Assembly: GCF_001029505.1 (NCBI RefSeq) | Contig: NZ_LEKH01000003.1 | Coordinates: forward strand, 1-64,000 | DNA from: Rubrobacter aplysinae | GTDB taxonomy: Bacteria > Actinomycetota > Rubrobacteria > Rubrobacterales > Rubrobacteraceae | Direction of reading: 5' to 3' | Length of the DNA: 64,000 nt | In this document: positions 10,612 through 31,686 of the stretch, one piece after another | Layout: every line of letters begins with the position of its first letter | Numbering within the stretch: position 1 is the first letter of the stretch | The notes under the pieces: model-generated | What the model was told of the DNA's origin: nothing | Databases searched by the model: none | What the model saw: the letters and a program-made list of their open reading frames with translations, nothing else | Position numbers and translations under genes: made by a program

Positions 10612-10656
10612 TATCTGTTACCGTCACCCTGGGAATACAGAGAAAGGAGAGACGAG

Positions 10657-11259
10657 TTGGCGCGCATACCCATCATGCACGAGGATGACCCCTCTACCCC
10701 GCGGCAGACGCGGGAGCTTCTGGGGGAGATCGGCGAAAGGCGGGGGCAGGTGCTCAACATATACCGGGCGATGGCCAATCACCCGCAGCTTGCGAAGCCT
10801 TTTGTGGAGTTCTACGTGACCGCGAGAGAGGGCGGGCTTACGCAGGCCGAGTGCGAGCTCGCGTACCTTTCGGCGACCGTCGCGAACGACTGTCACTACT
10901 GAATACCGACGCACGTGATGCTCGGTCGGAGCGTCGGACTCAGCGAGGACAAGATCCACCACGTCGGCGACGATGACCCGCCGGAGGACGTCTACGAGCC
11001 TTCGGAGCGGGCGATAGTGCGTTACGGCCGCAGGTCCACTCTGGAGATAACCGTGGACGAGGAAACCTACGGGGCGCTCACCGAACACTACGCCCTGGAG
11101 CAGGTCATGGAGATCTGGGCCCTGGTCGGCGTTGCGAACATGGTGAACCGCTTCCACGCCACCTTCCACACGGACGTGGACCCGGAGACCCTACAGGCGG
11201 TGGAGGCCGGAGACCAGGAGGCAGGCTCGTGCCCCCTGCCGATGCCGGATAAGCCCTGA
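10657..11259 (+). CDS. Probable selenoprotein, AhpD/carboxymuconolactone-decarboxylase-like (CxxU)
   Basis: Read through the TGA at 10900-10902, this is a 200-residue protein with selenocysteine at residue 82. The TGA falls exactly on the second position of the CxxC redox motif of the AhpD-like family (NDCHY-U-IPTHVMLG). Homology continues in the same frame on both sides: ELAYLSATVAN before; ALTEHYALEQVMEIWALVGVA and NMVNRFHATFHTDVD after. AhpD-like proteins are thiol peroxidase/reductase partners, and selenocysteine in place of cysteine is known for this family. The TTG start at 10657 has AAAGGAG seven bases upstream. A SECIS-like hairpin lies 14 bases after the TGA. No sel genes are in the window. 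A plain nonsense mutation is the alternative, but would not predict the hairpin. Confidence 0.85.
10917..10935 (+). promoter_or_regulatory. Bacterial SECIS-like hairpin after the in-frame TGA
   Basis: gatgctc (10917-10923) pairs with gagcgtc (10929-10935), seven pairs including one G-U, around the loop GGTCG (10924-10928). The loop begins 21 bases after the TGA, within the range seen for bacterial SECIS elements, and its GGTC matches the GGUC of the Escherichia coli fdhF loop contacted by SelB. An alternative stem, ccgacgc (10906-10912) with gcgtcgg (10931-10937), would compete with it. The hairpin is inside the coding frame, as expected in bacteria. Confidence 0.75.
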
Positions 11260-29098: not shown

Positions 29099-29145
29099 AA
29101 GTGGCGGGACACGGATTCGAACCGTGGACACCGTGAGCTTCAATC
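29099..29145. repeat. Right attachment repeat, within tRNA-Phe
   Basis: Identical to 16334-16380 over 47 bases. It covers the anticodon loop to the 3' end of the complete tRNA-Phe gene, plus three bases past the end. Confidence 0.92.
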
Positions 29146-29174
29146 ACGTGCTCTACCTACTGAGCTATCCCGCC
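29102..29174 (-). tRNA. tRNA-Phe (GAA)
   Basis: 73 nt, cloverleaf complete: acceptor GGCGGGA with TCCCGCC, D-arm GCTC/GAGC, anticodon stem CGTGA/TCACG with loop TTGAAGC (anticodon GAA), T-arm CACGG/CCGTG with TTCGAAT, discriminator A. CCA is not encoded. The 3' part is the attachment site of the integrative element, and the gene is restored intact at this junction. Confidence 0.95.
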
Positions 29175-29211
29175 GTCTCATCTGGCTCTTTGACCCGAGC
29201 CACCGGGCGGG

Positions 29212-29285
<74 letters not shown>

Positions 29286-29384
29286 GCGCGAGGAGGAGTG
29301 TATCAGACGGTTTGCGGCTTTGCTAACCTTTGCAGCACTTTGTAGTAGAGAGGTCCGACTGCCCTGGGAGCCGCCCTTCGGGGG

Positions 29385-30998
29385 CTATGCAGAGATGCCG
29401 GATAACGAGACCAATAGCCCTTCATCCGGCCTTACGCCAAGGCTGTTGAGGCCCACCTCTCCGTCGCGGTCCAGGTGAGTGGAGCAGAGCACCTCGCCGG
29501 ATGGCCCGGATCGGCTGAGATCCAGGGTCGCGGCTTCCGGGCCGAGGTTGAAGATCGCCAGCACCCGTTGGCCGCCGCACTCGCGCACGTAGGCGAAGAT
29601 CCCGTCCGCCCCGACGTTCAGTGGATGGTAGGAGCCCGCCTCTAGCGCCGGGGTCTGGTGTCTGAGGTGTATCAGGCGCCGTACCAGGGAGAGCGTGGAG
29701 CGCGGATCCTGGCTCTGGGCGCGTACGTTGGCCGAGTCCGATTCGGGGAGCGGCAGCCAGGGCTCGACGTCGGGGGGGCAGAACCCGGCGTTTGGCGAGT
29801 CGTCCCACCGCATCGGGGTGCGCGCGGGGTCGCGGTTGTACTCCGGCGTGTGGATGCCTTGCGGATCCCGGGTCATCTCTGGTGGGATCTCGGCGTCCAT
29901 CATACCGATCTCGTCTCCGTAATAGCAGGTCGGGCTGCCGCGCAGGGTTAGCAGCAGCATCTGGGCGACCCTGGTCCCGGCCTGTCCCAGGCGGGTGGCG
30001 AGCCTCGGGTTGTCGTGGTTGCCGAGCACCCAGTTCGGGGACGCCCCCTCGGGGAGCGCGGCCTCATACTCCTCGACGAGCGATTCCAGGGCCCCGGCGC
30101 TCCACTCCGGGATCTGGACGAGGCCGAAGTTGAACGGCAGGTGCAGCCCGTCGAGCTCAGTACCGTAGTAGCGCATCAGACGCCCCAGGGGCAGGTAGAG
30201 CTCGCCTATGAGCACCCTGTCCCCCTCGTACTCGTCGGCTATGCTCCGCATCCGCCGCACCACGTCGAGCACCTCGGTCTGGTCGTCGGTGTATACCCTG
30301 TGCTGGCGCTGGGAGGCCGGGTCTCCCGCTCTCCAGTCGGGGTTTGGCGGGTTGTCCCGGAGCCCCTCGTCCTTGAACAGCGAGGAGAGCGCGTCTATGC
30401 GGAAGCCGTCCACGCCGCGGTCCAGCCAGAATCGTAGGACGCCGTACATCGCCTCCCGGACCTCGGGGTTGCGCCAGTTCAGGTCGGGCTGGCGGGTGTC
30501 GAAGGTGTGCATGTAGTACTGCCGCGTGGCCTCATCCCAGGTCCACGACCCGCCGCCGAAGATGCTCTCCCAGTTGTTCGGCGGCCCACCGCCGGGGGCC
30601 GGGTCGGCCCAGATGTACCAGGCCCGTTTCGGGCTCTGCCGGGAGGAACGGGCCTCCACGAACCAGGGATGCTCGTCGGAGGTATGGTTCGGCACGTAGT
30701 CCAGGATCACCCGTATCTCGCGCCGGTGAGCGCCCTCCAGCAACTCGTCGAAGTCTGCGAGCTCTCCGAACAGTGGGTCCACGCCGCAGTGGTCGGCGAT
30801 GTCGTAGCCGAAATCCGCCATCGGGGACGGGTAGAATGGAGAGAGCCAGACGGCGTCCACTCTCAGCCACCGCAGGTAGTCGAGCTTCGAGACCACGCCG
30901 GGCAGGTCTCCCACCCCGTCGCCGTTCGCGTCCATGAAGCTGCGCGGGTAGATCTGGTACACCACCCCGCTCTCCCACCAGAACGTGGGCCGACTCAA
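29385..30998 (-). CDS. GH13 alpha-glucosidase (oligo-1,6-glucosidase-like)
   Basis: 537 residues from the TTG at 30998, chosen because GAGGGGGGA lies four bases upstream; the frame reaches 31028. It is a full (beta/alpha)8 GH13 enzyme: WWESGVVYQIYPRSFMDANG at the start, region I DYVPNHTSDEHPW, nucleophile Asp in DGFRIDAL, acid/base Glu in LIGELYLP, and the third catalytic Asp in LGNHDNPRLATR. A C-terminal beta domain follows. It probably hydrolyses alpha-1,4 or alpha-1,6 glucosidic bonds in intracellular oligosaccharides or trehalose-type sugars. It lies between tRNA clusters and has no sugar transporter beside it. Confidence 0.94.
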   Translation of the reverse strand: MSRPTFWWESGVVYQIYPRSFMDANGDGVGDLPGVVSKLDYLRWLRVDAVWLSPFYPSPMADFGYDIADHCGVDPLFGELADFDELLEGAHRREIRVILDYVPNHTSDEHPWFVEARSSRQSPKRAWYIWADPAPGGGPPNNWESIFGGGSWTWDEATRQYYMHTFDTRQPDLNWRNPEVREAMYGVLRFWLDRGVDGFRIDALSSLFKDEGLRDNPPNPDWRAGDPASQRQHRVYTDDQTEVLDVVRRMRSIADEYEGDRVLIGELYLPLGRLMRYYGTELDGLHLPFNFGLVQIPEWSAGALESLVEEYEAALPEGASPNWVLGNHDNPRLATRLGQAGTRVAQMLLLTLRGSPTCYYGDEIGMMDAEIPPEMTRDPQGIHTPEYNRDPARTPMRWDDSPNAGFCPPDVEPWLPLPESDSANVRAQSQDPRSTLSLVRRLIHLRHQTPALEAGSYHPLNVGADGIFAYVRECGGQRVLAIFNLGPEAATLDLSRSGPSGEVLCSTHLDRDGEVGLNSLGVRPDEGLLVSLSGISA

Positions 30999-31363
30999 TA
31001 CATCCCCCCTCAAACTCTCACCTTCCAAGAGGATTTCCCCGGATGGAAATCCTCTGCCGTGGCTTTCAGTGTCTATCCAGGACGGTATCTTCGGAATCGT
31101 TATAGTAGACCCGTACGCCGGTAGCGTCCAGCCCGTGGGGCGCTCTTACAGTGGCGGGCGAGGCGGAGTTACACGCTACGCGCGTGGCGAGGTTACGAAC
31201 GGAGGCTCAGAACCTCGATGGATGGCGTGACCGTAAATTGACCGTCACCGCCTCGCAAACAGCGGCACGTCACGGAGCAATTCCGGGGTCGAGGCGCTAG
31301 TGGCGGGATTCTGAGAACAAGATTCCGAGAGAAAGGAAATCTTTACCTATCTGCTTTATGGAG
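30999..31363. other. Gap upstream of the GH13 gene
   Basis: About 365 bp between the alpha-glucosidase and tRNA-Val. Apart from the leader hairpin at 31029-31054 I see no gene or RNA. It should contain the promoter of the GH13 gene and be the downstream side of the tRNA transcript. Confidence 0.4.
31029..31054 (-). promoter_or_regulatory. Leader hairpin directly upstream of the GH13 coding frame
   Basis: GAGGATTTCC and GGAAATCCTC form a perfect 10-bp stem around a 6-base loop. On the mRNA it sits immediately before the upstream TTG at 31028 and 30 bases before the better start at 30998, close enough to the ribosome binding site to affect translation. Confidence 0.5.
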
Positions 31364-31435
31364 TGGGCGATGCTGGAATCGAACCAGCGACATCTTCCTT
31401 GTAAGGGAAGCGCTCTACCGCTGAGCTAATCGCCC
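31364..31435 (-). tRNA. tRNA-Val (TAC)
   Basis: 72 nt including discriminator A. Acceptor GGGCGAT/ATCGCCC, anticodon stem CTTCC/GGAAG with loop CTTACAA (anticodon TAC), T-arm GCTGG/CCAGC with TTCGATT. CCA is not encoded. Confidence 0.95.
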
Positions 31436-31451
31436 TCGTATTCGGCCGCCG

Positions 31452-31527
31452 TGGTGCCCCCAACGGGATTCGAACCCGTGCCGCCGCCTTGAAAGGGCGG
31501 TGTCCTGGGCCACTAGACGATGGGGGC
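31452..31527 (-). tRNA. tRNA-Glu (TTC)
   Basis: Acceptor GCCCCCA/TGGGGGC, anticodon stem CCGCC/GGCGG with loop CTTTCAA (anticodon TTC), T-loop TTCGAAT, discriminator A. A CCA triplet follows in the DNA (31452-31454), so the 3' end is encoded, unlike its neighbours. Confidence 0.95.
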
Positions 31528-31613
31528 CCGTATGGCGCTCGTGGTGCTTGTGGCGCGCACGACGCGTGTGACGGTACTCTAACAGGCTACGGCGGTATCC
31601 ACCCGGCCGCCTG

Positions 31614-31686
31614 TGAGCCAGGAAGGAATCGAACCTTCGACACGAGGATTAAAAGTCCCCTGCTCTAACCACTGAGCTACTGGCCC
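31614..31686 (-). tRNA. tRNA-Lys (TTT)
   Basis: 73 nt including discriminator A. Acceptor GGGCCAG/CTGGCTC (one G-U), anticodon stem GGGGA/TCCTC (one G-U) with loop CTTTTAA (anticodon TTT), T-arm GAAGG/CCTTC with TTCGATT. It is the first tRNA of the Lys-Glu-Val series. Confidence 0.95.

Follow-up and report, generated by a model that had tools for sequence, protein, structure and literature searches.

The window analysed here is a stretch of 64,000 nucleotides from Rubrobacter aplysinae. On its forward strand lies an AhpD-like gene of the CMD family whose reading frame is open from start to stop, apart from a single in-frame TGA at codon 82 in the motif C79-H-Y-(TGA82)-I-P-T-H86. The initial annotation of this DNA had placed the one interruption at the second cysteine of the CxxC motif of the family, and this is where it falls. 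It had also foreseen that normal annotation would split the gene, and a mechanical ORF finder does list it as two ORFs. The distance from the Shine-Dalgarno-like AAAGGAG to the TTG start is normal, and homologues have ATG or GTG starts at the same position. The features of the locus are collected in Table 1. At 29101-31686, the minus strand of the window also has an ordinary cluster of genes for tRNA-Phe, -Asp, -Val, -Glu and -Lys.

Table 1. Coordinates of the AhpD-like gene and its proposed recoding and active-site elements.
Feature	Position	Strand	Description
Predicted AhpD-like (CMD family) selenoprotein gene	10657-11259	+	200 aa including Sec82; TTG start; TGA stop 11257-11259
UGA codon (U82), very probably read as selenocysteine	10900-10902	+	Site of the second catalytic Cys in AhpD; from homologue comparison
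Shine-Dalgarno-like AAAGGAG	10643-10649	+	Directly 5' of the TTG start; approximate to 1-2 bases; from sequence
C79 codon	10891-10893	+	First Cys of the CxxU motif; putative resolving role
E67 codon	10855-10857	+	Predicted proton-relay glutamate, invariant within the subfamily; relay residues per PMC3141380
H86 codon	10912-10914	+	Predicted proton-relay histidine
Putative bacterial SECIS upper stem-loop	10917-10935	+	7-bp stem 10917-10923/10929-10935; loop GGUCG 10924-10928; inside the coding sequence

Reading frame and hairpin around the in-frame UGA

The product read through the TGA matches the Pfam CMD domain (PF02627) with E=2.9e-10 and 40.4 bits (gathering cut-off 23), and the match spans the TGA. 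When the gene is compared with a 69%-identical Rubrobacter homologue, the differences lie mainly at third codon positions, with 21/15/35 changes by codon position before the TGA and 22/22/54 after it. This third-position bias 3' of the TGA indicates that the downstream part is coding sequence under protein-level selection. Both results bear out the claim that homology continues in frame past the stop.

The hairpin that follows the TGA reads GATGCTC-GGTCG-GAGCGTC in DNA, and its loop is spaced 21 nt from the UGA. The published bSECIS model places a stem-loop 16-37 nt after the UGA, with a loop of 3-9 nt, a stem of 4-16 bp, an MFE <= -7.5 and a G within the first two loop positions (PMC13188914). 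The window hairpin lies within all of these limits, with its 5-nt loop starting with G, its 7 bp and its -16.3 kcal/mol, and the GGTC loop reported at SECIS distance is thus confirmed. On its own, the hairpin is weak evidence, since roughly 2% of the TGA triplets in the window, which is GC-rich, are followed by an equally good one and since its single-sequence folding is unremarkable (z -0.55).

Conservation and covariation, in contrast, are strong evidence for a SECIS element. Across the Rubrobacteraceae and the first Pseudonocardiales set, the stem is paired in 100% of cases and 4 of its 7 pairs are doubly compensated. None of 500 shuffles is as good as the SECIS pairing, neighbouring (slid) registers fail, and RNAalifold recovers the same hairpin. 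In a second Pseudonocardiaceae clade (L090-L097), the original register pairs only 33%, while a register one base shorter, with the loop GGUC in place of GGUCG, pairs 97.6%. The RNA hairpin was thus retained there despite its moved base partners. A competing hairpin (10906-10912/10931-10937), almost equally stable in single-sequence folding, was rejected; it is not conserved and, with 75.5% of cells paired, does no better than shuffles.

Evidence for selenocysteine decoding in the genome and among homologues

The genome (3.19 Mb, 98.9% complete) contains the genes for selenocysteine use that the initial annotation had proposed to look for. Contig C5 carries selA (488.6 bits, cut-off 267.9) and selB (316 bits, cut-off 242), adjoined by a tRNA-Sec with a TCA anticodon, while selD (L062, C22:28730-29647) lies on contig C22 and itself has an in-frame TGA with a hairpin. 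Two formate dehydrogenase alpha genes (L098, L099; contig C4) have an in-frame TGA in a UH motif, followed in both by a hairpin with GGUC in its loop, like that of the window gene. In addition, a second AhpD-like gene (C5:52452-53036, L056:953-1537) has the motif CTYULSVH, with a TGA at the equivalent codon and a hairpin after it. By family search, the genome thus holds at least five selenoprotein candidates, namely the two AhpD-like proteins, SelD and the two formate dehydrogenases; judged from sequence comparison, UGA is recoded in several of its genes.

TGA-bearing relatives of the CTYULSVH gene occur in many Rubrobacteraceae. Another CMD-family gene, L059:1237-1758, lies just upstream of the G032 homologue and has a TGA in AEYUGPHH with a hairpin after it; its first Cys is missing, and where it has TGA, its relatives encode Glu. 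If real, it would represent Sec without a resolving Cys.

Within the Rubrobacteraceae, 30 of 40 genomes have selB, as do 21 of the 22 near-complete ones; both Pseudonocardiales genomes tested have it too. Use of Sec in Rubrobacter xylanophilus was already known (PMC1794560, PMC5330540), and five selenoproteins were listed for it in 2006 (PMC1794560). The caution that selenoproteins are uncommon in ordinary actinomycete DNA does not apply to this lineage.

At the equivalent of codon 82, TGA stands in every one of the 17 homologous loci that extend over the site (the window gene included), from 15 genomes of Rubrobacteraceae and Pseudonocardiales, and Cys stands there in none. The loci of this subfamily are L018, L025, L026, L057 and L060 in the Rubrobacteraceae and L019, L020 and L089-L097 in the Pseudonocardiales, whose members share 39-49% identity with the window protein. 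A search of 397 genomes of the phylum at E<=1e-20 gave only six matches, all within the window's own family, and no member of Cys form; one of 299 genomes from the family of the Pseudonocardia match at E<=1e-30 gave nine matches, again with no Cys form. Cys occupies the equivalent site in distant relatives (CEYC, CNYC, CAYC). No relatives were found in the viral contigs searched, and among the best plasmid records only distant ones, below 31% identity, were seen. A conserved gene neighbourhood was rejected, as neighbours differ among the Rubrobacteraceae loci, and STAS and amidase neighbours are common to two Pseudonocardiales only.

Placement of the TGA is shared by every one of these loci, and its exact position is therefore not due to chance. 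The initial annotation had argued as much from the coincidence of stop, cysteine site and hairpin; the conclusion stands on the homologues, and the hairpin taken alone is weak support, given the background of similar hairpins in the window. Those refuting checks of the initial annotation that were run all favoured selenocysteine. As to decay of the gene in close relatives, which had been named as a sign against a selenoprotein, the TGA is kept at every locus that extends over the site, and two copies look broken. Both come from related Rubrobacter MAGs. L065 is a gene remnant in which an internal deletion takes out the Sec site; in L060 the frame is shifted and the GG of the SECIS loop has become TG. 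selB was not found in the genome of L060, which is 79% complete. These copies may have decayed, possibly after loss of Sec use, or may reflect assembly errors.

Two readings without selenocysteine have to be set against this evidence. If this were an ordinary AhpD-like gene of Cys type, hit by a nonsense mutation or misread in sequencing, a single change from TGC or TGT to TGA would be enough to leave a pseudogene or an artefact, and the two damaged MAG copies might be taken in favour of this reading. It would have to account, however, for an identical TGA in two distant actinobacterial lineages, for a codon-position bias that persists 3' of it, for a covarying SECIS, for complete Sec machinery in the genome and for a window copy that has no further stop or frameshift. 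The homologous sequences refute this reading for the subfamily, and for the window gene it is very improbable. Still less credible, to the point of being negligible, is a genuine stop that divides the locus into two independent genes, 10606/10657-10902 and 10915-11259. Such a pair would agree with the output of the ORF finder, but the CMD domain crosses the junction, the invariant P84, T85 and H86 would fall between the two ORFs, and C79 would be parted from H86 in every homologue.

Together, the TGA in all homologues, the SECIS with its compensatory changes and the Sec machinery support the selenoprotein interpretation put forward at the outset. It can be held with high confidence that UGA codon 82 is decoded as selenocysteine in an AhpD-like selenoprotein. 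In a tree of AhpD-like proteins, the window subfamily and that of the second paralogue (CTYULSVH) fall in different parts, the latter with Cys-containing 'peroxidase-related' rows. This arrangement suggests that Sec was gained or lost more than once, although the tree has several deep branches of great length and uncertain placement.

Predicted active site and chemistry

AhpD and PA0269 use a relay of five residues, Glu-Cys-His/Tyr-Cys-His (PMC3141380). The window protein has the complete relay as E67, C79, Y81, U82 and H86, with Sec replacing the second Cys. All five positions are invariant in the 12 aligned members, as are P84, T85 and H86 in the stretch after the recoded codon. The predicted structure matches 2gmy, 7xw1 and 6ohi with a Foldseek probability of 1.0 and E ~2e-4, so that the model, of moderate quality (mean pLDDT 62.9), has the all-helical AhpD fold. 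Among solved structures, those closest by sequence and fold belong to AhpD, to peroxidase-related proteins and to the debrominase Bmp8 (6ohi/6ohj).

These features present a model for decoding and catalysis. The SelA/SelB/tRNA-Sec system would decode UGA82, directed by the downstream GGUC-loop SECIS within the coding sequence, as its conservation suggests. In the all-helical protein, E67, C79, Y81, U82 and H86 would form an AhpD-type proton relay. By homology, the U82 selenolate would attack a peroxide or another oxidised substrate, C79 would then form a Se-S bridge to resolve the product, and a thiol system of the cell would re-reduce that bridge. What is generally known of AhpD points in the same direction, to a selenol peroxidase or thiol-redox reaction in which C79 would be the resolving thiol. 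Peroxidase-type chemistry is the probable function of the window protein.

A selenoprotein with another chemistry, such as reductive dehalogenation of the kind carried out by Bmp8, or thiol-disulfide exchange, is a possibility of lower standing and rather unlikely. The presence of Bmp8 among the nearest solved relatives speaks for it, and no obvious peroxidase partner appears among the scanned neighbours, which vary by lineage. Against it, every residue of the E-C-Y-C/U-H relay known from peroxidase-type AhpD is in place, and plain 'peroxidase-related' entries are at least as close as Bmp8. More speculative, and doubtful, is the proposal that the Rubrobacteraceae and Pseudonocardiales proteins form a Sec-only AhpD-fold subfamily with a specialised reaction that Cys cannot support, for example reductive dehalogenation or that of a dedicated organic peroxidase.

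Comparison with known AhpD-like selenoproteins

Selenoproteins of this general kind are not new. Work of 2008 found marine metagenomes to be rich in AhpD-like CxxU selenoproteins (PMC2398784), and these are catalogued under TIGR01926, PF02627, NF041047 and NF041238 (PMC13188914), in agreement with the remark in the initial annotation that such proteins had been described. Its description of the gene as new applies to the gene and its subfamily, not to the kind. Searches of the open-licence literature found no report of the subfamily in Rubrobacter or Pseudonocardia. Novelty thus appears to lie in the subfamily, as both the CxxU kind and the use of Sec in Rubrobacter were already known. R. xylanophilus is a genus-level relative that uses Sec, SelD included; the parts of PMC1794560 considered here do not name an AhpD-like member among its five selenoproteins.

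The catalogued families differ from the window protein in measurable ways. The TIGR01926 CxxU AhpD-like selenoprotein, listed in a 2026 review table (PMC13188914), shares the AhpD/CMD fold, a length of ~180-200 aa and Sec where CxxC has its second Cys. The window protein scores only 53.4 bits against that model (cut-off 81.8), and its subfamily stands apart from the entry, with CHYUIPTH/CFYUTPTH and a C-terminal NRFHATFHTDVD. The YciW-related (seleno)protein NF053654 and the AhpD-related CFYUT (seleno)protein NF041238 belong to the same superfamily and are matched weakly by members of the subfamily, with 28.2-28.5 bits against NF053654 (cut-off 310); the window protein has no match to NF041238 at E<=0.001. 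None of the NCBIfam models that the protein matches gives it a score above cut-off. It is therefore most aptly placed in a new subfamily within a known kind, and standard annotation would probably cut its gene in two. A well-supported actinobacterial selenoprotein subfamily is thereby added. The searches turned up no Cys form, and the SECIS register moved while the peptide stayed similar; the subfamily therefore offers a good natural test of selenium retention.

The closest parallel in active-site geometry is with proteins that use cysteine. Pseudomonas aeruginosa PA0269 (2ijc, 2o4d, 7xw1) and Mycobacterium tuberculosis AhpD have the same five-residue relay with identical spacing, which in the window protein, as in PA0269, is E-12-C-2-Y-1-U-4-H with Cys for U in PA0269. 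The Tyr variant of the relay is likewise that of PA0269, despite an overall identity of only ~23%. Both known enzymes have Cys at the second motif position, where the window protein is predicted to have Sec, and Sec82 would be the equivalent of Cys133 in M. tuberculosis AhpD.
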